Virus record (IMG/VR): IMGVR_UViG_3300023184_004051
Span: 1-64,000 of that record
Source of the DNA: a virus
Length of the DNA: 64,000 nt
Strand: one strand, 5' to 3'
The position numbers were made by a program, and so were the translations under genes. Shown one piece after another: positions 18,014 through 34,101 of this stretch; the first letter of the stretch is position 1; each line of letters opens with the position of its first letter. Below the pieces are notes generated by a model that saw only the letters and a program-made list of their open reading frames with translations, did no database searches and was not told the origin of the DNA.

Positions 18014-18217
18014 GTGGCGAACCCTGACGACGAAAATGGCGACGACGAGTTTAGTGAAATGCACGACCCGTTCATTGGTGCGCCGTTATCCGGTCACCTC
18101 GTTGTCGCATTTGGCGAACTCTACAACTCCTTCTCCGCACTTATGGAGAGCGGTTTCACCGAAAACCAAGCCCTAAAGTTCCTCGCCTTCTGCTCTATTT
18201 TTGAGGGCGACTTTTGA
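18014..18217 (+). CDS. Small hypothetical protein (67 aa)
   Basis: A 67-residue acidic protein starting at GTG 18014 (VANPDDENGDDEFSE). TACTAT ends eight bases upstream, so a near-leaderless transcript is likely. The C-terminal part (GELYNSFSALMESGFTENQALKFLAFC) is a helix pair with a pattern I associate with small conserved actinophage proteins. The frame is open further upstream through the nested hairpin, but no good start lies there. Function unknown. Confidence 0.5.
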   Translation: MANPDDENGDDEFSEMHDPFIGAPLSGHLVVAFGELYNSFSALMESGFTENQALKFLAFCSIFEGDF

Positions 18218-18606
18218 CCTACGCCAATCCGAACTACGACGGCACGAACGACTTTTTTTTACCTGAGGATGTCATCCTCATTGACCAACAACTTGCTTTA
18301 GCAATGAAGCCCCCTGCGTGGGCGAAAGACGGAGAGTGTCGAGCGCCGAACGCAGCGAACCTAGACAAGTTCTTTCCCGAAAGCACGAAGCACGGTGGCA
18401 ATCACCTAAAGCCTGCCCGTGAGATGTGCCTCAGATGCCCTGTGCGCTACGAGTGTTTGGAATACGGGATAGACGAACCTTGGGGGGTTTGGGGTGGTCA
18501 TTCACCAAGCCAGCGCCGTCGCATCATTTCCCTAGTGAAAAATGGTAGTAGCCTATGGGAGGCTAGCCAAGTCATAGATGCACGGAGTAGGGATGCCAGA
18601 GGATAA
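18214..18606 (+). CDS. WhiB-family iron-sulfur protein (second copy)
   Basis: A 130-residue WhiB protein. The cysteines are at C42, C72, C75 and C81 (ECRAPN...MCLRCPVRYEC), followed by the GVWGGHS turn and a basic C-terminal helix (QRRRIISLVK). It should carry a [4Fe-4S] cluster and modulate the host RNA polymerase. The start is uncertain: TTG 18214 overlaps the previous stop, and an internal ATG at 18304 would still keep the domain. It lies immediately before the portal gene, so it may control the structural operon. It is clearly different from the WhiB at 13355. Confidence 0.88.
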   Translation: MTYANPNYDGTNDFFLPEDVILIDQQLALAMKPPAWAKDGECRAPNAANLDKFFPESTKHGGNHLKPAREMCLRCPVRYECLEYGIDEPWGVWGGHSPSQRRRIISLVKNGSSLWEASQVIDARSRDARG

Positions 18607-20221
18607 AGAGGTTTTACCACAGGTAGATAACTTCACCGAACTGGGTGCTACAGGTCTGTGGCGCACAGGTGGCTTCGTCATTGACGACATTCTGCCTCAA
18701 CTGCGAGGCAAGCAGGCTCAAATCGCTTACCGCGATATGGCTGAAAACGACCCGATTATTGGCGCAATCCTGTTCGCAATCGAGCGAGTCATCCTTCAGG
18801 TGGACTGGCGTGTAGACCCGTTTGACGACATCACTGACGGCTTGCCTCCTTTGGATGCTGATGTCAAAGCCGCAGCGTTCGTGCAAGAGTGCATTGACGA
18901 TATGAGCCATTCGTGGCACGAGTTGATGATTGCCATCTGCTCGTTCTTGACCTACGGCTGGTCATACTTTGAGATTGTCTACAAACAGCGCAAGGGGCCG
19001 AACCAAAAAGACCCCGCACTGCGTTCCAAGTTTAGTGATAACAAGGTCGGCTGGCGCAAGATTGTGATGCGAGCGCAGGACTCCCTGTGGCAATGGCAGT
19101 TTGACGAAAGCGGCGGCATCAAGGCGATGGTTCAGCGTGACCCCACGACAGGTCGCCTGAATGTCATTCCAATCGAGAAGTCGCTACTTTTCAGAACAAC
19201 CGCCGCTCGTGGAAACCCTGAAGGCCGCTCCATTTTGCGTTCAGCGTTCAAGGCTTGGTATTACAAGCGGCGCATCGAAGAGTTTGAGGCTGTCGGCGTT
19301 GAGCGTGACCTCGCCGGATTGCCTGTCGGTTATGTCCCTGCTGAATGGATGGCATCTACCGCTACGGCTGCTGAAAAGGCTTCATTTTGGGCGATGCAGA
19401 GCATTGTTCGTGGTGTAAAGCGCAACGAGAGCGAAGGCATCATCCTGCCGATGATGTTTGACGAAAACGGCAAGCAACTCGTTGACTTCAAGTTGCTGAA
19501 CTCAGGTGGCAGTCGTCAGTTCCAAACCGGAGCGATTATTGACCGCTACAACAACCAAATCGCAATGACCTGCCTTGCTGACTTCATTATGCTTGGTCAC
19601 GAAAGCGTCGGTTCGTTTGCTCTCGGTGCTTCCAAGATTGACTTGTTTATGGCTGCGGTGGAAAGTTGGGTGCGCCTGATTGCCGAAGTGTTCAACAGCC
19701 ACGCCATTCCACGCCTTATCGCTCTGAACGGCTTGGACACATCTCGTTGCCCCACCCTCACTTACGGTCAGGTGAACGCTATTGACCTGAATGAGTTGGG
19801 TGGCTACCTCTCTAACCTCACTTCAGCACAGTTGCTCACGCCAGACAACAACTTGGAGGAATACCTGCGAGAAATCGCTGGACTGCCCGGCTTCCGCCCC
19901 GATGCCGAGGGAACTGCTGAAAACGCACGCTACGCCGACGGACAAACTGCCCCCGAACAAGCAATGACTGAGCCAAAGAACTTTGTTGGCGTGTCATCAG
20001 CAAGCGCAGGTGCGGTTGCAACTCCAAACCCCGGCACGAAGGTCAAAGCCCCCCAAAATGCACAGGGCGGCAAGAACGACCAAAGTGGCGGTAGTGGAAA
20101 CCAAACGGATATCTCATCTGCCGGATACACGGGAGAAGCACCTCCATCTGAGAAGGGGCCGACGAAAAACACCACCGGACAGAATGGCCCCCTGACGAAC
20201 AATCAAGGCTCAACAACGTGA
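18593..20221 (+). CDS. Portal protein (DUF935 / Mu gp29-like)
   Basis: A 542-residue portal protein of the DUF935 type. Characteristic parts are YRDMAENDPIIGAILFAIERVIL (about 40-62), FLTYGWSYFEIVYK (about 118-131), IEEFEAVGVERDLAGLPVGYVP (about 225-246) and the region FADFIMLGHESVGSFALG near 325. The last 80 residues are Gly/Ser/Pro/Lys-rich and probably disordered. It forms the dodecameric ring for DNA entry. ATG 18593 with GGAG upstream is preferred to an in-frame ATG at 18578. No terminase gene lies upstream in this window, which is unusual for order. Confidence 0.85.
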   Translation: MPEDKEVLPQVDNFTELGATGLWRTGGFVIDDILPQLRGKQAQIAYRDMAENDPIIGAILFAIERVILQVDWRVDPFDDITDGLPPLDADVKAAAFVQECIDDMSHSWHELMIAICSFLTYGWSYFEIVYKQRKGPNQKDPALRSKFSDNKVGWRKIVMRAQDSLWQWQFDESGGIKAMVQRDPTTGRLNVIPIEKSLLFRTTAARGNPEGRSILRSAFKAWYYKRRIEEFEAVGVERDLAGLPVGYVPAEWMASTATAAEKASFWAMQSIVRGVKRNESEGIILPMMFDENGKQLVDFKLLNSGGSRQFQTGAIIDRYNNQIAMTCLADFIMLGHESVGSFALGASKIDLFMAAVESWVRLIAEVFNSHAIPRLIALNGLDTSRCPTLTYGQVNAIDLNELGGYLSNLTSAQLLTPDNNLEEYLREIAGLPGFRPDAEGTAENARYADGQTAPEQAMTEPKNFVGVSSASAGAVATPNPGTKVKAPQNAQGGKNDQSGGSGNQTDISSAGYTGEAPPSEKGPTKNTTGQNGPLTNNQGSTT

Positions 20222-20381: not shown

Positions 20382-22463
20382 ATGGAACAAATGAACGTCA
20401 TTTCTGCCATCACGGATATTGACCTTTCCGAAGTTATGGTGAACCCCGCATTGCCAACTGATGTGTGCGAAGCGGCAGGCGAACTGCTGAAAAAGGGTTG
20501 CTACAACGCAGACCTCCTTGCAATCTCCGACGAGGAAGGCGACACCTCTCTCGTCATCGTTCCAAACTGGCCGACGAGAAAGCGTCTATTCCGTTCCGCC
20601 CCTAGTGAAATCCTTTCCCCCGATGCAGAGCGTCGTTTGATTTCTCGCAACATCGCTAAGGGACTTGCCGACGAAGCCCACCCCTTCACCAAGAGTGTCA
20701 ACGACTTCGGCGGCGCTCACCCCTGCACCGTTTGTGGTTCAGTTTTGGAAAAGTCAATGTGCGAGCCTTTGGACAAAGCCATCGGCTTCCCTTTCACCTT
20801 CGCTATGTCCCCCGTTTCCCCTGATGAGAACGACATTGTTGAGGATGAGAGTTCAGAGGACAGCACGACGGACGGTGCGGTTCAGGTGAAACTTGACCCA
20901 GCAACCGTCGCCGCAATCCTTCAAGCGGTTCAGGCAGCGAATGGTGATGAGGACAGTTCCTCGTCAAGCACTTCCTCGTCGTCATCCTCGTCTAGTGAAA
21001 TGGATGGGGAGAGTTCGTCAAGCAGTTCATCGGTTGATGACAGTGACATCTTGGGTGAAAACTGGAAAGACGGTCTTGACCCTTGGCAGGTTCAACTTGC
21101 TGAAAGCCTTGACGAAATGGTTGAGGATATGGGTCGTGTTCCGACCACCGACGCTTCATACACAGATGTTTCACCATACGCAGGGCAGAACTGTGGCACT
21201 TGCATCGCAATGGGCGAAAGCGGTTGCGATTGGGTTGCTGTTTCTTGCTCGCCTGAGGGTTGGTGCAAGTTCAATGTGACCCCTGTTCTCCTTCGTGCGG
21301 CTGGTGAAAACGAGCAGTATTACAAGGCTCGCAAGGCGGCATCGCCAGATGAGCAAAAGGCAGCGCCCGAAGTTTCACCAGAGAAGCAAGACACTTCCGA
21401 GGACACGAGCGACGAAAGCACTTCGTCAGGCGGTCAAGACCTCGCCCAAGGTGAAATCGAGAAGGGTGGTCCCGGTTCAGGCCCACAACCCGGTCACGCC
21501 TTTTATGGCAACCAATACCAAGCCGGTTCAGGTGGCGGTGGTGGAGCCGACAACTGGGGCGACAAGAACAATAGTGAAAAAGCCTTAGCGGATGTAAAGG
21601 CTGCCGATTACTTGACCGTTTGGTCTGACGGTCCAATGACCGACACCGCAGCAAAGGTGATGGAAGCCGAAAGTCGCCACCCTGATATGGAAGCGGCATA
21701 CCAAGGCAAAGAGACAATGAGCAACGATGAGCGTTCAGCAGATGCCATTCCAAAATGGCTCGTGAACCAAGCGACTCCTAGAGATTTGGACATTTTGACT
21801 GACCACAACTTCCACTCGTCAGTTCGCTACATCCAATCCCAACGACCTGACCTCGTTGCCAAGTCGGTTGGTGAAATCCAAAAGGACAGCCCAACCGTTG
21901 AGGGCGTTCACGTTGATGGCGTTATTGGCGCAGTTGGTGTTTTGCCAAAGTTCGTTCCTGTTGAGTTGGACATCATTGAGGAACAGCAGCCCGAAGTCCT
22001 CGTTGCCGCCAAGTCTGCTGAAATCCCCGGCACAATCCAAAAGTCAGATGAAAAGCGATACACGCTCGGCCCTTGGTATGTTCCAAACCAGAAAGACGCT
22101 CACGGAGAGTGGACTGACCCTGAGGAACTCCAAAAGGCACTTTGGGGCTATGTCGAGAGCGGTGACCGTGACATCCGACTTCAGCACAATGTCAATGTCG
22201 TTGCCGGTAAGTGGGTAGAAGCAATGATGTGGCCTCACGCAGTTGAGGTTCCAATGCTGAAAGCCGACACGCAAGAAATCGTCAAGACCACTTTCCCCGC
22301 CGGAACTGCCTTCTTGGGTGTTCAGTGGGAGCCTTGGGCTTGGGAACTCGTCAAGAAGGGCGAAATCCGAGGTTTCAGCATCGGTGGCACAGGCTCACCT
22401 ATTGAGGTTGACCTGCCATCGGAGTTTGACGACCCCAACCATTTCCCGTTGTTTGGGAAGTAA
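20382..22463 (+). CDS. Large protein with C-terminal XkdF-type serine protease and one GNQ tag
   Basis: A 693-residue protein. Residues about 553-693 (KRYTLGPWYVPNQKDAHGEW, DIRLQHNVNVVAGKWVE, FPAGTAFLGVQWEPWAWELV, GFSIGG) match the XkdF/Peptidase_S78_2 putative prohead protease, a serine protease family of phage heads. Upstream lie possible zinc sites (CTVCGS near 118, NCGTC near 270), a poly-Ser/Asp region (about 187-218) and one GGPGSGPQPGHAFYGNQY tag near 361-380. The protease is therefore linked in one chain to the tag present in seven other proteins. It probably matures the capsid and may also cut tagged proteins; that is inference. Confidence 0.8.
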   Translation: MEQMNVISAITDIDLSEVMVNPALPTDVCEAAGELLKKGCYNADLLAISDEEGDTSLVIVPNWPTRKRLFRSAPSEILSPDAERRLISRNIAKGLADEAHPFTKSVNDFGGAHPCTVCGSVLEKSMCEPLDKAIGFPFTFAMSPVSPDENDIVEDESSEDSTTDGAVQVKLDPATVAAILQAVQAANGDEDSSSSSTSSSSSSSSEMDGESSSSSSSVDDSDILGENWKDGLDPWQVQLAESLDEMVEDMGRVPTTDASYTDVSPYAGQNCGTCIAMGESGCDWVAVSCSPEGWCKFNVTPVLLRAAGENEQYYKARKAASPDEQKAAPEVSPEKQDTSEDTSDESTSSGGQDLAQGEIEKGGPGSGPQPGHAFYGNQYQAGSGGGGGADNWGDKNNSEKALADVKAADYLTVWSDGPMTDTAAKVMEAESRHPDMEAAYQGKETMSNDERSADAIPKWLVNQATPRDLDILTDHNFHSSVRYIQSQRPDLVAKSVGEIQKDSPTVEGVHVDGVIGAVGVLPKFVPVELDIIEEQQPEVLVAAKSAEIPGTIQKSDEKRYTLGPWYVPNQKDAHGEWTDPEELQKALWGYVESGDRDIRLQHNVNVVAGKWVEAMMWPHAVEVPMLKADTQEIVKTTFPAGTAFLGVQWEPWAWELVKKGEIRGFSIGGTGSPIEVDLPSEFDDPNHFPLFGK

Positions 22464-22469
22464 TCCCAA

Positions 22470-24377
22470 ATGCCACAGCCGCCCGATTTCACTACCGACG
22501 GTTTGCTCAACAAAGCGAACTCCGGCTTAGAGCCTCCACGCACGAAGCAACCTCTAAAAATCACCGACAGCCACCCTCAGTCAAACGGTGCAGTTTGGAT
22601 GTCATCGGGGCAAGCGCCACGCATCGGTGGTGGAACTGTGTCGTTCAAGGATGTGAGCGGCCCCGGCACTCCCTCGCACCCGATTTGGACTGTCACGAAG
22701 CCGGATGGTGAAAAGACGGTCTTTGAGGGTCTAGGCATCAAAGATGGCAGACCTACCGGGATTGACGCAAGCGGTCACGGCAACTTTCAGGCGACCATCA
22801 CCAAGCCAAATGGCGAGAAGGAAGTTATCCATCAGCAAGGCGCTACAGGAACTCACACTCGCTTCAATGCTCGTGGTCAACTTGTGACCCGTTTCACCAC
22901 AGGGGCAGGTCGCTTTACGGGTCGTGTGACAGGCGCTCACGCACCGGCGGTCAGCAATGGAAAACACGCCTTCCACGGCAATCAGTTCACCGCCCACGGC
23001 ACAGATGTTCCGGTGCAAGGCCCCCAAGCAAGAAACAAGTCAGTTGACGCAAATACACCCGAAAGGCCCCTAATGCTAAACGATAGTGAAACCCTCCAAT
23101 GGCTCCGCAAAGCGATGGACACTCCAAAATACCCAGATGTCCAAATGCCAAACAACTTGAACAGCACCAACAACTTCGTTGAGCGTGCAAAGGTGCTAGA
23201 GGCAAAGGCTCGCATCCTTGACGATATGCACGAGAACCGTGCTTTTGATGGTCGTGAACCATTCACCGACGAGGACTACGCCGCTTTTTCAGCGGCCCAC
23301 AAGGACTTGGCAGACTCCCACCGTGTTCTCGGAGAGGACTTGAAGGCAGCAATGCCTGATGCACTCCAAGCGATTTCAGCACACGGCAACGCAATGGCCT
23401 ACCACAACGGGGCTTCCAAACTTGCCGAAATGATGGAACCATCTGCTGAACTTGGCGAACGCAATCTGATGTGGCCGCATATGGACAGCAACCAGTTCCG
23501 TTTTGGACACAAAGGCCCTTGGGACACCGAGGAAAAGAACTGGCGAAAGGCTCACCAAGCGTTCATCGCCTCACAATACGCAGCCCGTCAAACCGCTTTT
23601 GACACGGGTGTAGTGGAAAAGGGTATGGATGAGAGCCTTGCCGACATCCTTCGTCACGACAAGGGCCACGATGACTGGCACGCAATGCACGGTGATGAGC
23701 CTTGCACTTCAGAAGCCGACTGCGCCGCTAAGCGAGCCAAGTATGCCGAGGTGAAAGCCGAGGAAGCAGCAAGTGTTTCCAAAGGTGGCCCAGAGGAAGC
23801 CCCACGCCGAGGCAAATACACGATGCGTGATGCCCAGATGAAGTATCTGCGAGAGCGTATGGCGGAGCGCAGGGCTTCTGGTGAAAAGGCAGGCGATGAG
23901 GGTCGGGGAACCGGCTCACACACCGTTGGCGACTTCCCCGGACACCCATTCCGAGGCAACCAATACTCCAAGTCAGTTGAAGTGGTGGAAAAGGGCGATG
24001 TCCCCGGTCACATTTTCCACGGCAACCAATACATCACAGGAACCACCTCAATCCCTGACAACGTTGGTGGTCGTGACTTTGATGCCAAGTCCACCCTTGG
24101 TCAAATCGGGCAAATGAACATCCTGAGCGTGAGTGGTGGAAAAGTCCACTCTATTCACGACACTGATGGTGCAGTCGTAGGTTTGGAACTCCCCGTCAGC
24201 AGCGGCTACAAGGTGCGTGTTTTCCTCGCAGATGACGACACCTACACCGTTCAGCGTGTCCACCGTGACAATGTGAAGGGTGAGCAAACGGGCGTGTATG
24301 CCGACGAGGTTGGTGAAAGCGTCTACCAAGCCGGTATGTACAAGTCCAATCCATTCGGCGGACACTCTCCCCGATAA
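22470..24377 (+). CDS. GNQ-tagged virion-associated protein (635 aa, three tags)
   Basis: A 635-residue protein with tags near residues 165 (KHAFHGNQF), 487 (GDFPGHPFRGNQY) and 508 (KGDVPGHIFHGNQY). The first 160 residues look beta-rich with Gly-Asp turns (TKPDGEKTVFEGLG, TKPNGEKEVIHQQG, an internal near-repeat). The middle (180-430) is helical with His/Ala pairs. Residues about 430-520 duplicate a module found in the protein at 25673. The last about 110 residues form a separate beta-rich domain (INILSVSGGKVHSI...VVGLELPVSSGYKVRVF). No catalytic family recognised. It starts six bases after the protease gene ends. Confidence 0.65.
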   Translation: MPQPPDFTTDGLLNKANSGLEPPRTKQPLKITDSHPQSNGAVWMSSGQAPRIGGGTVSFKDVSGPGTPSHPIWTVTKPDGEKTVFEGLGIKDGRPTGIDASGHGNFQATITKPNGEKEVIHQQGATGTHTRFNARGQLVTRFTTGAGRFTGRVTGAHAPAVSNGKHAFHGNQFTAHGTDVPVQGPQARNKSVDANTPERPLMLNDSETLQWLRKAMDTPKYPDVQMPNNLNSTNNFVERAKVLEAKARILDDMHENRAFDGREPFTDEDYAAFSAAHKDLADSHRVLGEDLKAAMPDALQAISAHGNAMAYHNGASKLAEMMEPSAELGERNLMWPHMDSNQFRFGHKGPWDTEEKNWRKAHQAFIASQYAARQTAFDTGVVEKGMDESLADILRHDKGHDDWHAMHGDEPCTSEADCAAKRAKYAEVKAEEAASVSKGGPEEAPRRGKYTMRDAQMKYLRERMAERRASGEKAGDEGRGTGSHTVGDFPGHPFRGNQYSKSVEVVEKGDVPGHIFHGNQYITGTTSIPDNVGGRDFDAKSTLGQIGQMNILSVSGGKVHSIHDTDGAVVGLELPVSSGYKVRVFLADDDTYTVQRVHRDNVKGEQTGVYADEVGESVYQAGMYKSNPFGGHSPR

Positions 24378-24439
24378 ACCAACTTTTAGAAATAGTGGGA
24401 TAGCATTATCCCCATAAGCCTCTACGAAAGGTAGAACCT
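24378..24439 (+). promoter_or_regulatory. Promoter with palindrome GGGATAGCATTATCCC
   Basis: TTTTAGAAATAGTGGGATAGCAT resembles the promoter at 20333. The -10 TAGCAT (24401-24406) lies within the perfect inverted repeat GGGATA-gcat-TATCCC (24397-24412), a possible operator. GAAAGGT is the ribosome site for the gene at 24440. Confidence 0.5.
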
Positions 24440-25195
24440 ATGTCAGAAATCAGCAACGCAGATGTGGCCGAATGGGTCGTTTCATTTTGGAAGCAAGCCC
24501 CTAGTGAAATCGCCAAGGGAGGCCCCGGTTCTGGCGAGGGTCCCGGACACCCATTTCGAGGCAACCGCTACACGGGTGGCGTTCAGTCTGCCGGTCACCA
24601 CGAAATGCGTGAACACTCTCGTGGCTGGGGTCACGGTCAGCATATGACCGGCGCTGCCGCTCGTATCGCCGCAGGTCGTGTTGCGCTTGCTCACGGTGAC
24701 CACGGACAGGCTCGCGAACACTTCAACGAAGCCGCCTTCCACGCTTCACAGGCTTCATCACAAATCGCTCACGGCGCTGGTAGCCGTGAACTTGGTCACC
24801 ACGCAGAGGCCCTGTATCACGCTGCTCACCACGCTGGCGATGCTGCTGAAAAGGCTGGCTACTTGACCAACCGCCACGGCGAGGCTATTGGCAATGGCCG
24901 TGAAACCACTGTTGTGACCCGTGACCAACTGCTGAACACTGAGGCTGGTCGTGCCGTTGGCTCAACAAGCAACTTTGACCGTGGTGGTCGCTTCGGCCCC
25001 GTTGACACTCGCCTCATCCCTGAGGGTCGCTCAACTGACCGTGTTCTTACGACGGCTGAACTTAGCAATGCCGCCCAAGGCGCTCGTGACAACGCTGAGC
25101 GTGCCGCCAACCTTGCCGGTGCTGCCTCGCACGCTGCGACTTCTGCTCGTGGCTTGATGAGTCCAACCGCTATGGGTCGCGCAGCCGGTCAATAA
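24440..25195 (+). CDS. GNQ-tagged His/Ala-rich helical protein (251 aa)
   Basis: A 251-residue protein with one tag near the N-terminus (residues 26-44, GGPGSGEGPGHPFRGNRY). The remainder is an Ala/His/Gly/Arg-rich helical protein with repeated HxxA and AxHA spacing (QAREHFNEAAFHASQASSQIAHGAG, HHAEALYHAAHHAGDAAEKAG). This composition recalls DNA-condensing or metal-binding internal proteins. Codon choice is strongly biased toward GCT/CGT/GAC, implying high expression. The neighbouring Dps gene starts 12 bases after the stop. Function inferred only. Confidence 0.65.
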   Translation: MSEISNADVAEWVVSFWKQAPSEIAKGGPGSGEGPGHPFRGNRYTGGVQSAGHHEMREHSRGWGHGQHMTGAAARIAAGRVALAHGDHGQAREHFNEAAFHASQASSQIAHGAGSRELGHHAEALYHAAHHAGDAAEKAGYLTNRHGEAIGNGRETTVVTRDQLLNTEAGRAVGSTSNFDRGGRFGPVDTRLIPEGRSTDRVLTTAELSNAAQGARDNAERAANLAGAASHAATSARGLMSPTAMGRAAGQ

Positions 25196-25207
25196 GGGAT
25201 TTCACTA

Positions 25208-25666
25208 ATGAACATTTCCAAAGAAGGTGCTGGCGCTTTGGCATCAGCACTTGCTACTTGCCTTGCAAACGCAACGATTATGTATCACCGCGTTCACGGC
25301 TTTCATTGGAATGTCGTTGGCCCAGACTTTCCGCAATGGCACGACAAGTTTGCTGAAATCTACGATGATGTCTACGGCTCACTTGACCCCATTGCTGAAA
25401 ACATCCGCAAAATCGGTGGCGTAGCCCCATTCCGCTTGTCGGACTTGGCTGTGCGCGCCACCGTTGCTGATGACAATGTTGGCGATTACTCGCCACAAAG
25501 CCTTATCGGTAGTTTGCTTTCCACCAATGCTGGCGTTTTGGACAGTCTTGACCGGGCTTTCCAAATCGCCACCGACACTAATCAGCAAGGCATTGCCAAC
25601 TTCATTGCAGAGCGCATTGACGCTCACCAGAAATGGAACTGGCAACTGTCTGTCTCTAGGGGATAA
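25208..25666 (+). CDS. dps: Dps-family ferritin-like DNA-protection protein
   Basis: A 152-residue Dps protein. The intersubunit ferroxidase residues are intact with the family spacing: H33, H45, D60 and E64 (in HGFHWN, QWHDKF and DPIAEN). Dps dodecamers oxidise and store iron and can bind and compact DNA. It lacks the GNQ tag but lies between two tagged genes in the same operon, and is preceded by a GGGATTTCACTA word right at the ATG. A phage-encoded Dps in the virion block suggests protection of packaged or newly injected DNA from oxidative damage; inference. Confidence 0.88.
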   Translation: MNISKEGAGALASALATCLANATIMYHRVHGFHWNVVGPDFPQWHDKFAEIYDDVYGSLDPIAENIRKIGGVAPFRLSDLAVRATVADDNVGDYSPQSLIGSLLSTNAGVLDSLDRAFQIATDTNQQGIANFIAERIDAHQKWNWQLSVSRG

Positions 25667-25672
25667 CACCAA

Positions 25673-27610
25673 ATGGACAATCTTGACCAGTCAATCATTT
25701 CGTGGGTCATCAAGACCGTCGGCTTCGTCACCAAAGGCGGGCCTGAGGATACCCCTGAGGGCGGCAAGATGTCTTGGCAAGAGTGGAAACTCAAACGATA
25801 TGCCGAGCGGCGCACCGCAGAGCGGCGTGCGCGCTACGCCAACAACTCATCAGGCGGACACACCGTTGGTGATTATCCGGGTCATCCCTTCCGTGGGAAC
25901 CAATACCAAAAGGCCCTTACTGAAATCTTGAAGGGCGACTTGCCCGGTCACACTTTCCGAGGCAACCAATGGACTTCCCTTGGTGGTAAAGCCGATGCAC
26001 TTAGCGGTGCAGTTCAGAAGTTGTCTCTCAGTTCCACCCCAGAGGAAATCCGTAGTCTTGCTCGTGTTCACCAAGGGCTTGCGTTTCAACACGTCAACGT
26101 TGTCTCACAACACGAGGAAATGCCTTACCTGACGACCCCGCAGGAAATCGGTGCTGAAGCCCACCAAGACCTTACGAACAGTTCTTCGATTGCACAAGGC
26201 GTTCACGACGAAGCCGCCGAAGCCCACCAACACGCCGCCGCAGAACTCAACCACGTTGCTGAAATGATAGAAAGCGGCAGAAGTCAGGGAAGTTTGCGCC
26301 TCGCAATGGCTACGGCTAAGGGAGCAAGTCTTTTAGCCGCCGATGCCAGCCGTGAAGGTGACAAAACCGCATTGCCTCACCCTGTAGGCGACCCAGAGTT
26401 CCGTGACCACGAGGCCAAGATGGATGCTGAAATGGAAGCGGAATACCAAGCGAAGTTTGGCAAGTCCGTTGATTTCACTAAGGGCGACCTCCCCGGACAC
26501 CCTTTTAGAGGGAACCAATACGCCACTGGTCAAGAGTTGTCAGACAAGGCAACTAACCTCCGCAACACCGTTGAGAGGGGCATTGACCCTTACAGCGCCA
26601 ACCAATATTCGGTCACATCTTTTCACAACGATATTGCCGACAGGCATCAAAACTTGGCCGCAGACCACAGAGAAGCCGCTGAAGCACTACAACAGTTGCA
26701 AAGTCAAGTAGCGAATGAGGGGAATGTCGCTTTGACGGAACACCTCACCCGTGAAATCGGGAGCCACAGAGAGGCCGCCGCTATTCACCAACTTGCCGCC
26801 GACAACCACGACAAAGTGATTGACGCTGCAATCAACCCTCGTGGTGCTGATTGGTCACAACAAGCGGATGCTGCTGCCGATGCCACCCGTGCCGCTGACC
26901 GTGCTAGCGCAAAGGCGGCAATCGTAGAGAGACAAAGAGCAATGATGCCAACGCTAAAGTCAATCTCTTTCACTAAAGGCGATTATCCGGGACACCCTTT
27001 TCGTGGCAACCAATACAGTCACGGTGAAGCCGCCGCCGCTTTGCGTGACCTTGCTAAATCAGCACGAGCCGCCAATGCGAAGTCTCGCCTAAAGACCGAT
27101 GTTTTGGGCATTTCCGGCGCACGCTCGGACAAGACGGGGAACTACAACCGTAGCGTTCCCACCTACTCAACGCCTCGCTACCTGCAAAGCCAGACGGAGA
27201 ACGCAAAGGAACACAACGAATACATTGCCTCTCACGCCGAAGCCCTTGCAAAGCGTATTGAGAGCGACACTTCCAAGCCAGTAGAGCAGCACATTGCTGA
27301 TTTACAAGATGCCGTCAGTGGCTTGCGTAGTCAGGGTCAGTTCCACACCAGCGTTGACAACTACGACACGGGTGGCAACTACTACCGTTCAGCAAACGCA
27401 GGACAAGGCATTGTTGACCACCTCTCGGGTATGAAGTCTGAAGCACCGGCTTCCGAGCCTGACGAGCCACAGTATGCAGGTGGCACGACTAGTGAAATCG
27501 CCGCAGGGCTTCAAGAAGGTATCCGTAGTGGGCGTATTAGCACCCCAATGGATATGGATAACTACCTTTACGAGAGCGGCTTTGACGGCGACCCAACCGA
27601 ACTGTTCTAG
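25673..27610 (+). CDS. GNQ-tagged multidomain helical protein (645 aa, four tags)
   Basis: A 645-residue protein with four tags near residues 64, 87, 270 and 435. Between them are helical segments: 100-265, 280-420 and 450-640. Each begins a few residues after a tag and is rich in Ala/His/Gln (ADHREAAEALQQL, REAAAIHQLAADNHDKVID). The first about 90 residues duplicate a module in the protein at 22470 (KGGPE-x-x-P start, GHTVGD and two tags in the same order). Two tags are preceded by Phe-Thr-Lys encoded by a TTTCACTA word. It may be cut by the phage protease into four pieces. No enzyme family recognised. Confidence 0.65.
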   Translation: MDNLDQSIISWVIKTVGFVTKGGPEDTPEGGKMSWQEWKLKRYAERRTAERRARYANNSSGGHTVGDYPGHPFRGNQYQKALTEILKGDLPGHTFRGNQWTSLGGKADALSGAVQKLSLSSTPEEIRSLARVHQGLAFQHVNVVSQHEEMPYLTTPQEIGAEAHQDLTNSSSIAQGVHDEAAEAHQHAAAELNHVAEMIESGRSQGSLRLAMATAKGASLLAADASREGDKTALPHPVGDPEFRDHEAKMDAEMEAEYQAKFGKSVDFTKGDLPGHPFRGNQYATGQELSDKATNLRNTVERGIDPYSANQYSVTSFHNDIADRHQNLAADHREAAEALQQLQSQVANEGNVALTEHLTREIGSHREAAAIHQLAADNHDKVIDAAINPRGADWSQQADAAADATRAADRASAKAAIVERQRAMMPTLKSISFTKGDYPGHPFRGNQYSHGEAAAALRDLAKSARAANAKSRLKTDVLGISGARSDKTGNYNRSVPTYSTPRYLQSQTENAKEHNEYIASHAEALAKRIESDTSKPVEQHIADLQDAVSGLRSQGQFHTSVDNYDTGGNYYRSANAGQGIVDHLSGMKSEAPASEPDEPQYAGGTTSEIAAGLQEGIRSGRISTPMDMDNYLYESGFDGDPTELF

Positions 27611-27619
27611 GAGAACTAA

Positions 27620-28216
27620 ATGAGCAACCCTTTTCACCCCGACAGCCTTGACCCAATCGGCGCTGAGGCTATGCGTATTCTCAAAGGCGATTATCCGGGA
27701 CACCCATTTCGGGGTAATCAGTACACCGAAGGCTCGCTCTCGGATACCTCAACACGCTTATCCTCATTTGTGGCTAAAAACCGTAGCAACCTTTCACCTT
27801 CGGATGCACAGGACATTGCAGACAGCCACGATGCACACGCCGAGATGCACGGCTTTGCCGCCAAGCAACTTCGTGACCACATAGATGCGATTACCTCGCC
27901 AGAGAACCTTCACCGTGACGGTGAGGCAACCAAGGCGCAGGTTCAGGCCACGCTGAAGCAAGCCGCCGAACTCACCAAGGCAGCCGAAGCCCACGAAAAG
28001 GCGGCGGATGCACACGGCAAAGCCAGCGACACGGTGCTGAAATCACAGGGCGAGTGGGGTGGTCGTTTGGGTGTAAACGAAAAAGCCCCGACTACTTCGC
28101 AAGTTTCTGCCGCTTCTAGTGCCGCTTCCAAAGCCTCTGTTGCTGCTGAAAACATTGTTCCCTTCCCAGATGCCGGAGTTCAGTTGCCACTTGGCGCTCC
28201 CTACTACGGCGGATAG
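27620..28216 (+). CDS. GNQ-tagged small helical protein (198 aa)
   Basis: A 198-residue protein with a single tag at residues about 22-35 (KGDYPGHPFRGNQY), then a helical body with His/Ala pairs (DSHDAHAEMHGFAAKQLRDHIDAI, AAEAHEKAADAHGKA). It resembles one segment of the 645-residue protein upstream, suggesting modular duplication. A GGAG ribosome site lies 8 bases before the ATG. Function unknown; probably an internal capsid or cargo protein. Confidence 0.6.
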   Translation: MSNPFHPDSLDPIGAEAMRILKGDYPGHPFRGNQYTEGSLSDTSTRLSSFVAKNRSNLSPSDAQDIADSHDAHAEMHGFAAKQLRDHIDAITSPENLHRDGEATKAQVQATLKQAAELTKAAEAHEKAADAHGKASDTVLKSQGEWGGRLGVNEKAPTTSQVSAASSAASKASVAAENIVPFPDAGVQLPLGAPYYGG

Positions 28217-28284
28217 CGGTACGCAGTACAAGTATTTCCAAATAACGGTGTAGCATTTCAGCAGAACCCGAAAGGATTAGCCAT
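28217..28284 (+). promoter_or_regulatory. Promoter before the 494-aa tagged protein
   Basis: ATTTCCAAATAACGGTG is followed by TAGCAT (28251-28256), matching the promoters at 20333 and 24386. GAAAGGA is the ribosome site of the gene at 28285. Confidence 0.55.
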
Positions 28285-29769
28285 ATGATTAGAGTTCCGG
28301 GCGACGACCCAACGACTGTATCTTTCATTCAGAAAGGTGTCGAAGCAAACAACGGGCGTATTGCCTCCGAGCAAGTCACGAAGGCCGCTGCCGCTGAAGT
28401 GGTCGCTCGCACCGCTTTTGAGAACGCCAACTACCGTTTGGAAAAGGCTACCGAAACTCTGAAGGCTAGTGAAATCGCTTACCAAGAGGCCGTTGCCAAA
28501 TCAGCGTGGAACAAGGAACAAGTGCGAGCCGTCTACAACAACGCTCTCGCAGGCTTCCGTGACGCAGACCGCAATGCTGAAATCGCCGCAGAACAGTTTT
28601 CTTTGGCTAAGGCTGCTCTCGGTGGACTTCGTTCAGTCGCTAAGGCTGGCATCAGCAACGGCAACGAACTGAAGGCCGCTGTCAAACTCGCTAAGACCCC
28701 AGAGGAAAAGAAAGCCTGTGTGGATGCTGCTGAAAAGTTGAAGTTGGTCTTTTTCCTGCCTAAGGGTTGGAAGGCCGAAGCCGACAAGATGGTTGCAAAG
28801 TCAAGTTTCACCTCAGCCGAGCGTGCATCGTTCGTTGAAGCCGAGCGCAAGGCTCTGTCCATCAAGGACAAGCAACCGCACATCGCTTTGGAAATCTTGA
28901 ACAATGTTGCTGATGCCTACGCTATAGAGGCTGGCGATGCCAAGCAAAAGGGCGACCTCGCTACTTTTCAGCGCCTCGCTGCCGAAGGTGGTCGTGTGCG
29001 TGGTTTGGCTACCCAAATCCGCCAAGAAGGTTTTGACAACAAGTATCCCGTTCAAGATGTCAAAGACATCACCAACCTCCCTTTGGAAGTCGTTGGTAAA
29101 ACTGCAACTACTAACATTACGAAAGAAGTGATTATGCCCGATGCAAAGATTTTAGTCGTTTGCCCTTCCTGTGGTGGCGACGGCCCCGCCTCTTGCGAGA
29201 TGTGCGGTGGTGAAAAGATGGTTCCTGAGGCTGCATACCACGCCGCTTGGGGCAACAGCGACTATGACGACGAGCCGGGAATGGCCTTCACCACGAAGTC
29301 CCTCTTGACCCGTGACTTCCAAAAGTCCGTCGGCTACCAGAACTACATTTTCACTAAGGGCGGCCCCGGCTCAGGCGAAGGCCCCGGTCACCCGTTCCGT
29401 GGAAACCAGTGGACTGGTGGGCAAAGCGCAGGTGGTCGTCTTATCCACGAACGCGAGGGCCACAAGGTCACGATGAAGCGTTATGAGGAAGGCGCTGCCG
29501 CTCACAAGGCTGCTGCTGAAGCGCAGAAGGCTATCGCTCGTGGTCACGAGAGTCAGGGTCGCCACGCTAAGGCCGCAGAAGCCCACCGTGCCGCCGCCGA
29601 ACACCACAAGGCCGCTGCCGGTTTCCACGAAGGCATTGCCGGTATTCACCAAAAGGTTCACGGCGACGAAACTGCTCGCTCGGAACACCGTGGCGAAGCC
29701 GCCAAGCAACGTGTGTATCAGGGTCGCTCCACCGCCGAAGCCGCACGCTTGGAAGCCTTGGCTGCCTAG
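28285..29769 (+). CDS. GNQ-tagged coiled-coil and zinc-finger protein (494 aa)
   Basis: A 494-residue protein. Residues 1-280 are a long Ala/Glu/Lys-rich coiled coil. Residues about 292-310 carry a DnaJ-type zinc motif (CPSCGGDGPASCEMCGG). One tag (KGGPGSGEGPGHPFRGNQW) lies near 357-376. The last 110 residues are extremely Ala/His/Gly/Lys-rich (AAAHKAAAEAQKAIARGHESQ, HRAAAEHHKAAAGFHEG), histone-H1-like. The tag sits between the zinc motif and the basic tail. The tail may coat DNA. A TAGTGAAA word is read as Ser-Glu-Ile. No exact family recognised. Confidence 0.65.
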   Translation: MIRVPGDDPTTVSFIQKGVEANNGRIASEQVTKAAAAEVVARTAFENANYRLEKATETLKASEIAYQEAVAKSAWNKEQVRAVYNNALAGFRDADRNAEIAAEQFSLAKAALGGLRSVAKAGISNGNELKAAVKLAKTPEEKKACVDAAEKLKLVFFLPKGWKAEADKMVAKSSFTSAERASFVEAERKALSIKDKQPHIALEILNNVADAYAIEAGDAKQKGDLATFQRLAAEGGRVRGLATQIRQEGFDNKYPVQDVKDITNLPLEVVGKTATTNITKEVIMPDAKILVVCPSCGGDGPASCEMCGGEKMVPEAAYHAAWGNSDYDDEPGMAFTTKSLLTRDFQKSVGYQNYIFTKGGPGSGEGPGHPFRGNQWTGGQSAGGRLIHEREGHKVTMKRYEEGAAAHKAAAEAQKAIARGHESQGRHAKAAEAHRAAAEHHKAAAGFHEGIAGIHQKVHGDETARSEHRGEAAKQRVYQGRSTAEAARLEALAA

Positions 29770-29788
29770 TCAGTTCCAAAACTCACGG

Positions 29789-29840
29789 CTAGCCGCCACT
29801 ACTGAAATCCCGAAGTATGGGATAAAGTAGTGGCGGTTAG
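29789..29840. promoter_or_regulatory. 15-bp hairpin overlapping a -10 element
   Basis: CTAGCCGCCACTACT (29789-29803) pairs with AGTAGTGGCGGTTAG (29826-29840) with one G-T wobble. An inner ATCCC/GGGAT stem (29807-29811 with 29819-29823) extends it. A TAAAGT hexamer (29823-29828) overlaps the right arm, so the palindrome could be an operator for the gene at 29860 or a terminator for the one before. Confidence 0.55.
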
Positions 29841-29859
29841 TCATTTCTAAGGGGAACCA

Positions 29860-30147
29860 ATGCGTAATCCATTCGAGACAGCAGAACTTACGAAGTCGCT
29901 GGGAGTGTGGATTGCGAAGGCTCGTGAGGTGGAAATCCACAAGGCGGGGAACGCACAAGGTCTGATTGACTGGTACAACAACGGTGCTGATGGTCAAATC
30001 AACTGGGGCGAACACGGGGACTTTGATGCCTGTGTCGCTATTGCTGGAAAATACCTTGACAACCCCGAAGGGTTTTGTCAGAACCGTCACATTGACGCAA
30101 CCGGCGAACCTGCTGGAAAAGCACCCGGCGAAGCACAGGAAAAGTAG
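29860..30147 (+). CDS. Conserved small phage protein (95 aa)
   Basis: A 95-residue protein. The segment GADGQINWGEHGDFDACVAIAGKYL, then NPEGFCQNRHIDATGEPAGKAPGE, is a pattern I have seen as a small conserved domain in actinophage structural regions. The invariant Trp-Gly, Cys and Asn-x-x-His suggest a compact fold. AAGGGGA ribosome site precedes the ATG. It starts 20 bases after the hairpin. Function unknown, possibly a cargo or head accessory protein. Confidence 0.6.
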   Translation: MRNPFETAELTKSLGVWIAKAREVEIHKAGNAQGLIDWYNNGADGQINWGEHGDFDACVAIAGKYLDNPEGFCQNRHIDATGEPAGKAPGEAQEK

Positions 30148-30153
30148 TTCCTG

Positions 30154-30351
30154 ATGGAAGTTAGCGACTTTTTCAGTGACAACCTCGCGCCTAAGACCGC
30201 TAAGACTTTGGAAGCGGAGAAGTTCACCAAGGCTACGGCGAAAGGTTCTTGGGACTTCAGCACCAATGGGCTACTCAAAGTAGTCATTCCTACCCCTGTT
30301 TCCAAAACTAAGTCGCTGGATTTCAGCACGTCCGCCCTTCTCTCGGAGTAG
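30154..30351 (+). CDS. Small hypothetical protein (65 aa)
   Basis: A 65-residue protein beginning MEVSDFFSDNLAPKTAKTL. Two near-repeats are visible (SWDFSTNGLLKVV and SLDFSTSALLSE). It ends three bases before the multidomain gene. The small size and position suggest a chaperone or linker partner of the 1248-residue protein, but no motif supports a specific role. Confidence 0.45.
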   Translation: MEVSDFFSDNLAPKTAKTLEAEKFTKATAKGSWDFSTNGLLKVVIPTPVSKTKSLDFSTSALLSE

Positions 30352-30354
30352 GAA

Positions 30355-33300
30355 ATGTTCCAACCGAACTTCGTCACCTTCACCAACACTGACATCGCAG
30401 GTCGTGAACCCCTAGAGGGGAAGTTCATCGGCAACCAAAATAACGGTTTCTCGTTTGTTCGATTTGCTGATGGCTCCGGCGGTTTGGAAAAGGAGATGAA
30501 GGACTGGGTTGGGAACAAGACGGGTCGGCTCTACCCTGCTGAAATCTTGGCAGCGCAGGAGTATCTGGCTGGTCGTGTGGGCAAGGCAATGAACGCCCCC
30601 ATCCGTGATTGCTATTTCACTAGCCCCACGAAGGTCATTATGCCCTTCATCAACGGAACGCCTGCAAACGAAAAATACGAAACTGAACTTCCAAAAGGCG
30701 CTCAGGGAACAGCACTCAAACTCTTTGACTACTTCGTGGCAAACGCAGACCGCCGCCCCAAGAACTGGATTACCACATCAGATAATCGCATCGTCGGCAT
30801 TGACCACGCTCTGTGCAACTTCCGCCCACGCACTCCACAACCGGAGTTCGTTGCTGAAATGTGGAATAACGGCTTGACACTTGAAGGTTTGGAACGCCTC
30901 CGACCAAAGTTCGTCGCCCTTGCCAACGAGTTCAGCACATTGGGTATGGCAGACAAGCACCAAAACCTGATGGACAACTTTGACCGCCTGTTTGCCGCTT
31001 TCCAAATCCTTGACCAAGTAGCCGTTGTGGTGAAAGACGCACTCACGCCACCGAAGGGTGTGCAAGAAGCGGCTCAGCGAGCATTGGGCTGGTTGAAGGA
31101 AGGGAAGGCTGGCTCTGGTTTCACCCCTGTGGGTCGTAAGCGTGCATCTGACCTCGCTAACGCCCACCCTGTTTCACTAGACACCCTGAAGCGGATGAAG
31201 GCATACTTTGACCGCCACCAAGTAGACAAGAAGGCAGAGGGCTTTCAGCAAGGCGAGGATGGCTACCCATCTGCGGGTCGAGTCGCTTGGGATGCTTGGG
31301 GTGGTGATGCCGGTTGGTCGTGGGCAAAGTCAGTTTTGGAAAGCGAAGTCCGCAAAGAGGAAATCGGTCACGAGTTTCACGGTAATCAGCACACGGGTGG
31401 CATCGGAGGCGGAGGGGAAGCACCACGCCAAGTAGACCCGGGGCGCAATCAAGTCGGCCCCGGAAGGAACCAAGCCTCAGTCGCACCGGAGGCTGCTGAA
31501 AAGCCTGCCGAACCAAAGGAAACAGCAGAGAAGCCAAAAGAGCCTGAGAAGCCCGAGGACAAGAAATCCGAGGACAAGAAGCCTGAAGGTCAAACCAAGA
31601 AGGAATGGGCGCAAGCACAAGCGCAGAAAATCCTTGATGGTGAAATGCCGACCATCCCGCCAGACCAACTCCTTGACTTCTTTCGCCAAGTCACCGAACT
31701 TCCTAAAGAGTTCCAAACCGTTGACGCTACTGAAATCAAGACCGGCACAGAAGGGCCGAGAGGCCCACTGTTGGGCGACGAGGGAGTAGGCGGTGGTATT
31801 TCCCGCAAGGAGATGCCGCAAATCACAGAGGAACAACGCCCAGAGTTCCTAAGTATGCTGGAAACTGAACACGGCGTAAAGACCACCGAGGAACGGGTTG
31901 ACCCCACCACGCTCTCCCCCTACCAAAAGGAGATGGTTGCTGGAAACATCGGTGGCATCATCGCCAAAAACCCGACGGGATTGCCAGACAGCAGCCGTAT
32001 TCTCGTGTCTAGCGATGGCATCGTGATTGACGGTCACCACAACTGGGCGGCGGCAGTTGCCCTGCACGAAGGCTTGGATAGTCACCCCACACTTCCAATC
32101 TACCGAGTGGATATGCCCGCTTCCAAACTCATCCCCATTGCCACAGCGTTTGGTGATGCAAAGGGCAATCCCCGTATGGGAATGGTTCGCAAGGCCGAAC
32201 TGCGTCGTGTGCTGAAAAAGGCATACGGCAAGAACGCTCACGGGGCTACCAAGTCTATTTTGGAAATGATTTCAGCCCACGCTCGCAAGCGTGTCAAAAA
32301 GTCGTTCAACTACACAAACTTCATCCCCAAAAAGGATGAGCAGTCGTGGGGCAACTTAGGTGAAGGCATCTCCGTTCCAAAACAGGAAGCCGCTAGCCCT
32401 GCTGATGACTTGGCGCTCCGAGCCTTGAACCTGCGTGAAAAACAGCGTTATGAAAGCGCCGGATTTATGCACGAGCGAGCCGCAGCGGCATATCGAGCGC
32501 AGGCTGAAAAAGCAAGTGATGAAGCCGAACGCACATTGCTAGAGAGCAAGGCGAAAGACCAAGACTACGAAGCCAAAGTTGCACATTTCACTGACCAGAT
32601 GGGAGAGGGACACTCCCCCTCCGAGGTCAACAAAGGCGACACACCCGGACATCCTTTCCACGGAAACCAATGGACAGGTGGGAAGGGCGGTGGTGAAATG
32701 CCTGACAACATTGCCGTTTTCGCCCGCAACCTCAAAGAGTTCTACGACGCTGGTGGAAAAGTAGAGCGCATTGACAACTACGACAAAATGCAGGAAATCC
32801 AAAATCAAGTTCAGGACATTATGAGGAAGCCTGAATACAAGCAAATGGATGCTCGTCACCAACAAGGCATCCGCTTCTTAGCCGAAGCCGCCCTTCACGC
32901 CAAAGCCGGTGTCAATAACGCAAATAGTGAAAACTATGGCATTACTTCGTCACACTTGTTCGTTGCTCGCGATAAAGACGGCGAGATGGTATCTGCCGTC
33001 AACATCACCACTCACGAAAGTGGCGTTCGTTTGGGCGACCTCAAAGGCCCTGAAGTTCCACACGCCTCTATTGGCTATCTCGGCTCTACGGGAACGATGC
33101 CGGGTGCGGCAACAGCCCTTATGGAGCAGGCGCTCCAACTTGCCGCTGAAAAGGGCTTGACCGTCACCTACGAGACAACCCCTGACAGCCAGCCATACCA
33201 CGACAAGTTGGGTGTCCAAACGCTCAACTACCGAGGTCTACAAGGGTTTTCACCAGAAAGTGCAGCCGAAGTCGCAGCACTTCCAAATCCAAAACCGACC

Positions 33301-34101
33301 ATCATCAAGTCCAAAATCACCAAGGGCGATGTGCCGGGTCATCCGTTTCGTGGTAATCAGTGGGAAACAGGGGAAGGCGGTGGTGAAAACCAACGGTTTG
33401 AGCGATTTCCAACGCCTAACGAGGTAGGCGGAGAAGCCCACTTCAACTACATTTGGACCCGTTCACGCAGTTGGTATCCCAACGAAGGTCAAGACCCCAC
33501 AAAAGCCCTTGTTCCAAGAACACCAACTCACGATGATTTGATGAACGCTGCTAGGCAATGGAAGGGCGACCCAAAAGTTCTACGGGCAATGTTGCCAGAG
33601 ATTGTTGGTGGAATAGGCAACCCACCTTGGGTTTCGTCTGTGCAAGAGGATGACCGTGCCGCCTGTGCCGCATTACTCAACGAAGTCACCACGAACGCCC
33701 AAGAAAGCACCGGAACGCTCTGGCGTGGAATGACCCTTGGTAGTTCCAACTCCACGGTAGAGGAAATAATGCAACGCTTCACGGTTGGCGAAAAAACCGA
33801 TGTTCCAATCTCCGGCTTTAGTGAAAACCGCAACCACTCAATGAGGTTTTCTGTCGGCGGGGCGGGGCGTGAACGACAACCGGGGGTTCCGGTAATGTTT
33901 GCCCTTAGTTCGGGCGCACAAGGACTACCGCTAGACGGCAATCTTTATCGTGGGCAGTATGCCTACGAGAAGGAGTGGGTCGTTGGTGGTGAAATGCGAG
34001 TGGACAAGGTTGAGACAATGGGTTCAGGCAACAAGCAATACATCAAGGTTTCTATGACCCAGACACAACCACTAACAGCACCGGAAGGTGGCTTCCGATG
34101 A
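30355..34101 (+). CDS. GNQ-tagged polyprotein: kinase-like, ParB-like, acetyltransferase and ADP-ribosyltransferase-like domains
   Basis: A 1248-residue protein with four recognisable domains split by three tags (near 337, 760 and 990). Residues 1-205: HipA/PI3K-like kinase fold (LYPAEILAAQEY; catalytic FDYFVANADRRPKNWI and the IVGIDHALCNF metal motif). Residues about 232-325: a small helical domain (SLDTLKRMKAYFDRH, GGDAGWSWA). After a Pro/Glu/Lys linker, residues about 500-640: ParB/sulfiredoxin-like with DGHHNWAAAVALHE. Residues about 780-985: GNAT acetyltransferase (GYLGSTGTMPGAATALMEQAL). Residues about 1030-1248: ADP-ribosyltransferase-like with the R-S-E triad R1124, S1156 and E1205/E1207. 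The layout suggests proteolytic release of separate effectors after injection; inference. Confidence 0.7.
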   Translation: MFQPNFVTFTNTDIAGREPLEGKFIGNQNNGFSFVRFADGSGGLEKEMKDWVGNKTGRLYPAEILAAQEYLAGRVGKAMNAPIRDCYFTSPTKVIMPFINGTPANEKYETELPKGAQGTALKLFDYFVANADRRPKNWITTSDNRIVGIDHALCNFRPRTPQPEFVAEMWNNGLTLEGLERLRPKFVALANEFSTLGMADKHQNLMDNFDRLFAAFQILDQVAVVVKDALTPPKGVQEAAQRALGWLKEGKAGSGFTPVGRKRASDLANAHPVSLDTLKRMKAYFDRHQVDKKAEGFQQGEDGYPSAGRVAWDAWGGDAGWSWAKSVLESEVRKEEIGHEFHGNQHTGGIGGGGEAPRQVDPGRNQVGPGRNQASVAPEAAEKPAEPKETAEKPKEPEKPEDKKSEDKKPEGQTKKEWAQAQAQKILDGEMPTIPPDQLLDFFRQVTELPKEFQTVDATEIKTGTEGPRGPLLGDEGVGGGISRKEMPQITEEQRPEFLSMLETEHGVKTTEERVDPTTLSPYQKEMVAGNIGGIIAKNPTGLPDSSRILVSSDGIVIDGHHNWAAAVALHEGLDSHPTLPIYRVDMPASKLIPIATAFGDAKGNPRMGMVRKAELRRVLKKAYGKNAHGATKSILEMISAHARKRVKKSFNYTNFIPKKDEQSWGNLGEGISVPKQEAASPADDLALRALNLREKQRYESAGFMHERAAAAYRAQAEKASDEAERTLLESKAKDQDYEAKVAHFTDQMGEGHSPSEVNKGDTPGHPFHGNQWTGGKGGGEMPDNIAVFARNLKEFYDAGGKVERIDNYDKMQEIQNQVQDIMRKPEYKQMDARHQQGIRFLAEAALHAKAGVNNANSENYGITSSHLFVARDKDGEMVSAVNITTHESGVRLGDLKGPEVPHASIGYLGSTGTMPGAATALMEQALQLAAEKGLTVTYETTPDSQPYHDKLGVQTLNYRGLQGFSPESAAEVAALPNPKPTIIKSKITKGDVPGHPFRGNQWETGEGGGENQRFERFPTPNEVGGEAHFNYIWTRSRSWYPNEGQDPTKALVPRTPTHDDLMNAARQWKGDPKVLRAMLPEIVGGIGNPPWVSSVQEDDRAACAALLNEVTTNAQESTGTLWRGMTLGSSNSTVEEIMQRFTVGEKTDVPISGFSENRNHSMRFSVGGAGRERQPGVPVMFALSSGAQGLPLDGNLYRGQYAYEKEWVVGGEMRVDKVETMGSGNKQYIKVSMTQTQPLTAPEGGFR

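Follow-up and report, generated by a model that had tools for sequence, protein, structure and literature searches.

A Dps miniature ferritin in a phage head-gene operon and its recurrent fusion to capsid maturation proteases in related viruses

So far, phage Dps has been interpreted as an auxiliary metabolic gene, one that aids host survival under oxidative stress. What, then, would such a protein do among the genes that build a viral head? The question is raised by an open reading frame in the window, i.e. the whole stretch of DNA that was analysed, which corresponds to positions 1 to 64,000 of an IMG/VR virus record that is 108,670 bases long. Here, we examine the identity of this protein, its metal ligands, its genomic surroundings and the architectures in which its relatives occur, and weigh the roles that it could play during virus assembly.

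A Dps gene among phage head genes

The ORF at 25208-25666 (+ strand) runs uninterrupted from ATG to stop and encodes 152 amino acids. An earlier note, made from the sequence alone, had called the product a Dps ferritin, and this identification is borne out by sequence and structure searches alike: the protein matches Ferritin in Pfam (PF00210, 3.5e-14), phrog_3636 in PHROGs (5e-25) and Dps chains in the PDB (best 4.9e-16). Its AlphaFold2 model (single chain, 70 aligned sequences) has a mean pLDDT of 97.3 and features helices at 5-35, 41-68, 77-83, 96-123 and 127-151, the short helix 77-83 lying between long helices 2 and 3 in the pattern of Dps. The top rows of Foldseek and VIA searches with this model are all Dps (8ff9, TM 0.94, Z 23.9). 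Comparison with L002 and L003, two relatives, revealed purifying selection (pN/pS of about 0.15). Given these database matches, the fold model and the selection, the ORF is a real gene that encodes a Dps, a miniature ferritin. The surrounding features are as follows, where "tag" designates the motif G-H-P-F-R-G-N-Q.

18214-18606, strand not given: WhiB-like regulator just upstream of the portal gene (PF02467, 3.8e-14)
18578-20221, + strand: portal protein, Mu-like (PF06074, 3e-32; phrog_113, 4.8e-83)
20382-22463, + strand: ORF with an XkdF-type (S78_2) head maturation protease in its C-terminal part, aa 552-674 (PF14550, 1.4e-14; PHROG head maturation protease), and a tag at aa 371
21138-21311, + strand: HiPIP-like cysteine segment within the preceding ORF (Cys pattern and profiles; below the Pfam cut-off)
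22470-24377, + strand: tagged ORF, 635 aa, two tags (tag scan; no Pfam or PHROG family match)
24440-25195, + strand: tagged His/Ala-rich ORF, 251 aa, ending 12 bases before dps (tag scan)
25208-25666, + strand: Dps, 152 aa, with H33, H45, D60 and E64, Ala49 at the fifth ligand and Q126/N131 at the pore (Pfam, PHROG, PDB, AlphaFold2)
25673-27610, + strand: tagged ORF, 645 aa, four tags, 6 bases after dps (tag scan)
27620-28216, + strand: tagged ORF, 198 aa (tag scan)
28285-29769, + strand: tagged ORF, 494 aa (tag scan)
30355-34101, + strand: tagged ORF, 1248 aa, with a phrog_2859 domain at about aa 219-344 (PHROG; tag scan)
34098-35465, + strand: 455-aa ORF that closes the tagged block (tag scan; no family match)
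44668-45675, + strand: major head protein, at the downstream end of the head region (phrog_1005, 5.3e-96)

The earlier note had placed dps in a virion-cargo operon, flanked by tagged genes within 12 bases. The flanking genes are as described, with gaps of 12 and 6 bases, and the surroundings indeed form a head-gene operon with portal, XkdF protease and tagged genes; that the latter would encode cargo is one interpretation of this arrangement. In the window, dps is the third gene after the protease and is not fused to it. Gene order near dps is alike in the clade of 14 sequences to which the window belongs (support 99), except in L004 and L005: dps follows the XkdF protease by 2-7 genes, and portal, protease and Dps are encoded in the same direction. 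Counterparts of the His/Ala-rich ORF 24440-25195 precede dps in L001-L003, and the His/Ala-rich neighbours of dps, for which the earlier note had suggested possible binding of metal or DNA, have no family match in Pfam or PHROGs. No + strand promoter-like site was found between 17900 and 31178 (numbers at or below those of shuffles), which led us to reject an own promoter for dps, and terminators showed no excess in the dps operon region.

A WhiB-like gene points to an actinobacterial host; since one is present at 18214-18606, the virus of the window probably infects actinobacteria. Several relatives retain an ORF of similar length at the corresponding place. Further downstream, three consecutive DNA methyltransferase ORFs occupy 36349-40593, after the last tagged gene and before the gene of the major head protein, and the C-terminal part of ORF 30355-34101 looks ADP-ribosyltransferase-like by eye (LWRG ... 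SGFSEN ... EKEWVV), with no Pfam match.

The tag occurs in eight ORFs within 20382-35465, namely the XkdF protease ORF and seven more, at one to four copies each; the four copies in ORF 25673-27610 are spaced between modules. A pattern scan found none in Dps, in agreement with the earlier note, which had suggested that a packaged Dps may ride with a tagged partner and had proposed a survey of whether phage dps genes and the tag co-occur. The survey speaks against the tag as a general route. The tag pattern is present in at least 118 viral stretches, a distribution far wider than that of Dps. Six of 50 tag-bearing records matched the Dps profile at E <= 0.001; because one of them (G060, the record of L133) matches over only the last 15 Dps residues, encoded by bases 1-45 at the end of a tag-bearing contig, whole Dps is present in just five, four of which had already been found by the Dps searches. 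Co-occurrence is limited to a few lineages and tags near dps were observed only in the window's own clade, so that the tag was rejected as a general carrier of Dps. INPHARED contained no match to the tagged ORF 25673-27610, and no paper containing the tag letters was found among the matches listed.

Ferroxidase ligands and iron-entry pore

H33, H45, D60 and E64 lie where the earlier note had located them and are invariant in all 114 distinct phage-clade Dps sequences, fusions included, as well as in all 29 cellular sequences. To call the ferroxidase site "intact" was too strong, however, because the fifth canonical ligand, which we take to be the equivalent of E. coli D67 and Listeria D47, i.e. 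H45+4, is replaced by Ala49. The corresponding column is Asp or Glu in just 41 of the 114 phage-clade Dps versus 18 of the 29 cellular ones, and is Met or Ser in some of the latter, so the loss of this ligand is common and not phage-specific.

The phage clade also departs from cellular Dps near the C-terminal pore. Columns 126 and 131 carry acids in cellular Dps, whereas the window protein has Q at the former and N at the latter; among the phage Dps, Asn occupies column 131 in 108 of 114 sequences and column 126 changes from D to Q or E. G128 is invariant in the clade, within a QQGIANF-type motif, and D138 and W143 are gains with respect to cellular Dps, which together yield a clade signature composed of [QE]QG[IV]ANF (window residues 126-132) and HQKWxW (138-145). 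In Listeria Dps, the acids of the three-fold iron-entry pore are Glu118, Asp121, Asp126 and Asp130 (PMC8389677). Mapped by spacing, columns 126 and 131 look like the outer acidic ring of that pore, formed by Glu118, Asp121 and Asp126 (PMC8389677), and E135 of the window protein, which is acidic, would preserve an acidic residue close to the position of Asp130. By this mapping, the acidic ring of the pore appears largely neutralised throughout the phage clade. Given the replacement of the acidic columns 126 and 131, the clade retains its four catalytic ligands but is predicted to have an altered iron entrance. Searched alone against the PDB, the pore stretch gave no meaningful match.

The window protein is acidic (pI 5.15, charge -6.1) and has no Lys/Arg-rich tail at its N terminus (MNISKEGAGAL) or C terminus (QLSVSRG). 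DNA binding is not common to all Dps, so the absence of a basic tail does not exclude membership in the family. These properties do argue against the suggestion of the earlier note that the protein shields packaged or newly injected DNA, insofar as shielding would operate by binding; shielding through the removal of iron and peroxide is possible.

Fusions to head maturation proteases and the role of Dps

A profile search of IMG/VR retrieved at least 573 relatives, of which the 80 most similar were retained. Combined searches led to 121 loci with Dps (122 counting the window), whose architectures were assigned with local HMMs and confirmed on examples by Pfam and PHROG searches. A single ORF encodes both Dps and a head maturation protease in 36 loci, the protease following Dps in 23 and preceding it in 13, and fusions of both orders account for 35 of the 114 distinct phage-clade sequences of the de-duplicated tree, shares that apply to this sample, which was selected for similarity and with two fusion queries, and are not population rates. 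Two of the 35 originate from bacterial MAGs (L242 and L244), and a PF04586 protease is joined to a PF00210 Dps in one ORF in L007 and L019. On the tree, the presence of a fusion needs seven changes and its order needs five, while the branches starred in the tree force at least three changes for the protease-first order, which indicates that the fusions arose in several separate events.

A phrog_2859 domain precedes Dps and protease in many fusions, and this domain is also found in the window ORF 30355-34101. In the model of the L098 fusion, the helical Dps part and the protease part are both folded, mostly with confidence, and the linkers (114-128 and parts of 275-318) fall below a pLDDT of 50. 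Many phage-clade Dps stand alone. In some of these, the dps gene and the protease ORF overlap, with 4 shared bases in L044 and L058 and 14 in L048, and one clade of 35 stand-alone Dps sits among replication genes (DnaB, DnaC, initiator), with a terminase or portal about 6-8 genes off in some members. Only 2 of 50 stand-alone Dps records contain PF04586; the S78 protease was thus rejected as a neighbour of stand-alone Dps, and it is through fusion that Dps is linked to S78. The protease link of the window's clade is to the XkdF type. Other architectures were encountered in the survey, namely a single-ORF fusion of Dps with a Zeta-toxin domain, the latter also matching a "minor head protein" PHROG (L075:9575-11968), and the succession of a phrog_2859 domain, a HAD-like motif (ISDIDDTL, by eye), Dps and S78 protease (L122:3916-6015 and L123:3845-6004).

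The locus and its relatives thus display a Dps fold, four constrained ligands, a place in an operon with portal and protease genes, and repeated protease fusions in both orders. Because many related uncultivated viruses fuse Dps to a capsid-maturing enzyme, this Dps probably acts inside or on the virus particle and not as part of ordinary cell metabolism. The association with the particle evoked by the earlier note hence gains comparative support, from fusion (35/114) and from nearness in the operon, by a route which that note had not foreseen. With moderate confidence, we propose that a phage-specific Dps clade partners the head maturation protease, and that it would enter the procapsid with the protease and oxidise or hold iron there. 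Dps would be carried in together with protease and scaffold, by fusion in the relatives and, in the window phage, as an independent subunit expressed alongside them. Maturation would entail cleavage of the disordered linkers of the fusions, so that Dps would be retained inside the head. It may then assemble, oxidise ferrous iron, preferably with peroxide, and hold the iron, and the outcome might be the protection of packaged DNA or of head assembly from Fenton damage, a protection that would require no DNA binding through a basic tail. Several observations weigh against this proposal. Stand-alone Dps are common, including the clade of 35 among replication genes; the Dps of cultured phages lie outside head modules where checked; Dps and protease are not fused in the window phage; and, as regards the iron chemistry, the fifth ligand of the window protein is Ala and its pore acids are lost.

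The strongest rival, which we regard as rather unlikely, keeps Dps in the cell: made with the head genes, it would remove ferrous iron and peroxide late in infection and keep host or replicating DNA sound, its place in the head operon reflecting timing. The stand-alone Dps beside replication genes in one clade would suit such a role, and the literature takes phage DPS as help against host oxidative stress (PMC8008677, PMC6669764), yet neither the repeated fusion to capsid proteases in both orders nor the 4-base overlaps with the protease gene are explained. The fusions would make sense, in contrast, if Dps were primarily structural, a ball of 12 subunits that would bring proteases together and nucleate the procapsid's scaffold core, with iron chemistry secondary. 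An oligomerisation module would be expected to occur in both orders, and the fifth ligand and pore acids are relaxed; a pure scaffold would have no need of four metal ligands conserved without exception in all 114 sequences, the fusions among them, and we consider this explanation improbable.

Least probable is the second idea of the earlier note, namely that Dps enters the new host cell with the DNA and protects it there. The tagged neighbours could putatively be injected cargo, but a Dps dodecamer measures about 9 nm and is wider than a phage tail channel, so that passage as unfolded monomers would be required, and the protein has no basic tail with which to bind the DNA.

The proposed partnership with the protease could have a further component. 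The XkdF protease ORF (20382-22463) contains CGTCIAMGESGCDWVAVSCSPEGWCKF, the HiPIP-like cysteine segment, whose four Cys columns are invariant across 15 sequences. A loose Cys pattern was found in 23 ORFs of the surveyed loci, related sequences being counted repeatedly, versus none in 20 residue shuffles. Wider phage profiles of the segment retrieved HiPIPs first from the PDB (3.1e-5 and 1.7e-5, 3h31), while the window-clade profile alone was not significant (0.1) and the window segment alone returned repeat-driven "Pizza" designs first, with PioC at 0.0043. The cut-off of Pfam HIPIP (PF01355) was reached in none of 36 records, and the window segment has no Pfam match; a full HiPIP assignment was rejected on the basis of this missed cut-off and of the value of 0.1, and the segment may bind either Fe-S or Zn. 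Its profile matches 20 of 49 Dps records versus 2 of 45 tag records (one of them with Dps); because 13 of the 20 matching Dps records had supplied rows to the profile, the independent contrast is modest, at 7/36 versus 1/44. Related HiPIP-like segments occur near phage dps genes, and in L047 such a segment and Dps are found in one ORF. It is doubtful, at best a tentative idea, that these elements constitute an iron-redox module of the procapsid, in which the Dps ferroxidase would be linked, either as a fusion or within one operon, to a maturation protease ORF with a HiPIP-like [4Fe-4S] segment. If so, electrons or iron could move between Dps and the segment, clearing peroxide and iron during DNA packaging, or, alternatively, maturation could become sensitive to the redox state.

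Comparison with known systems

Cellular Dps, including PA0962 (8ff9), B. subtilis MrgA (2chp), Brevibacillus Dps (1n1q) and Caulobacterales and cyanobacterial members, share fold, length and H33/H45/D60/E64 with the window protein. A branch with support 99 nevertheless places phage Dps on one side and the 29 cellular Dps on the other, and the two sides differ at position 49, often non-acidic in phages, at positions 126 (D to Q/E) and 131 (D to N), and in the invariant G128 and the gained D138 and W143, the window protein also being devoid of a basic tail. Agrobacterium tumefaciens Dps (1o9r, Z 22.4) has the same fold, and its title describes a family member able to protect DNA without binding, which makes it a model for protection by iron chemistry alone; it is cellular and unlinked to capsid genes, whereas the window Dps stands in a head-gene operon. 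Regarding the cysteine segment, HiPIP [4Fe-4S] proteins (3h31 and PioC, 6xyv) have in common with it four Cys at HiPIP-like spacing and G-[WY]-C, but the window segment is embedded in a capsid protease ORF, unlike HiPIP proteins. A literature search that covered few subscription papers returned nothing relevant on HiPIP with phage or capsid.

Dps is likewise borne by Gratiaviridae/Flandersviridae, Lactobacillus and Aeromonas phages and cyanophage S-SRM01 (PMC8008677, PMC6669764), and has been interpreted as help against host oxidative stress in Gratiaviridae (PMC8008677) and in Lactobacillus phages (PMC6669764). The contexts of S-SRM01, a Bacteroides phage and Lactobacillus phages (PMC6669764) are outside head modules. 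INPHARED yielded six weak Dps matches (26-31% identity) and no fusion of Dps to a protease, unlike the window's relatives. The proteases themselves belong to the same families as the S78/XkdF prohead proteases of caudoviruses that carry extra domains; such domains are known on XkdF proteases, since XkdF-holding PHROGs carry names like RNA ligase or methyltransferase. INPHARED has 623 records that match L040, in its protease part among the matches listed, none of them covering 80% of the query and none containing a Dps fusion. No precedent for Dps with a prohead protease, or for a ferritin-like protein with a maturation protease, was found in the literature, of which few subscription papers were covered.

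Precedents exist for Dps, for phage Dps and for prohead proteases carrying extra domains; new is Dps as a recurrent partner fused to the capsid maturation protease, an arrangement that the searches of GenBank phages and of the literature did not return. If the proposed partnership holds, it would represent a natural means by which viral heads could be loaded with a protein cage, and it makes an old question testable on named proteins, namely whether phages guard their packaged DNA against iron and peroxide. Where phage Dps has been regarded as an aid to host metabolism, its recurrent fusion to a procapsid enzyme points to a role in the virion or in its assembly in many uncultivated phages.
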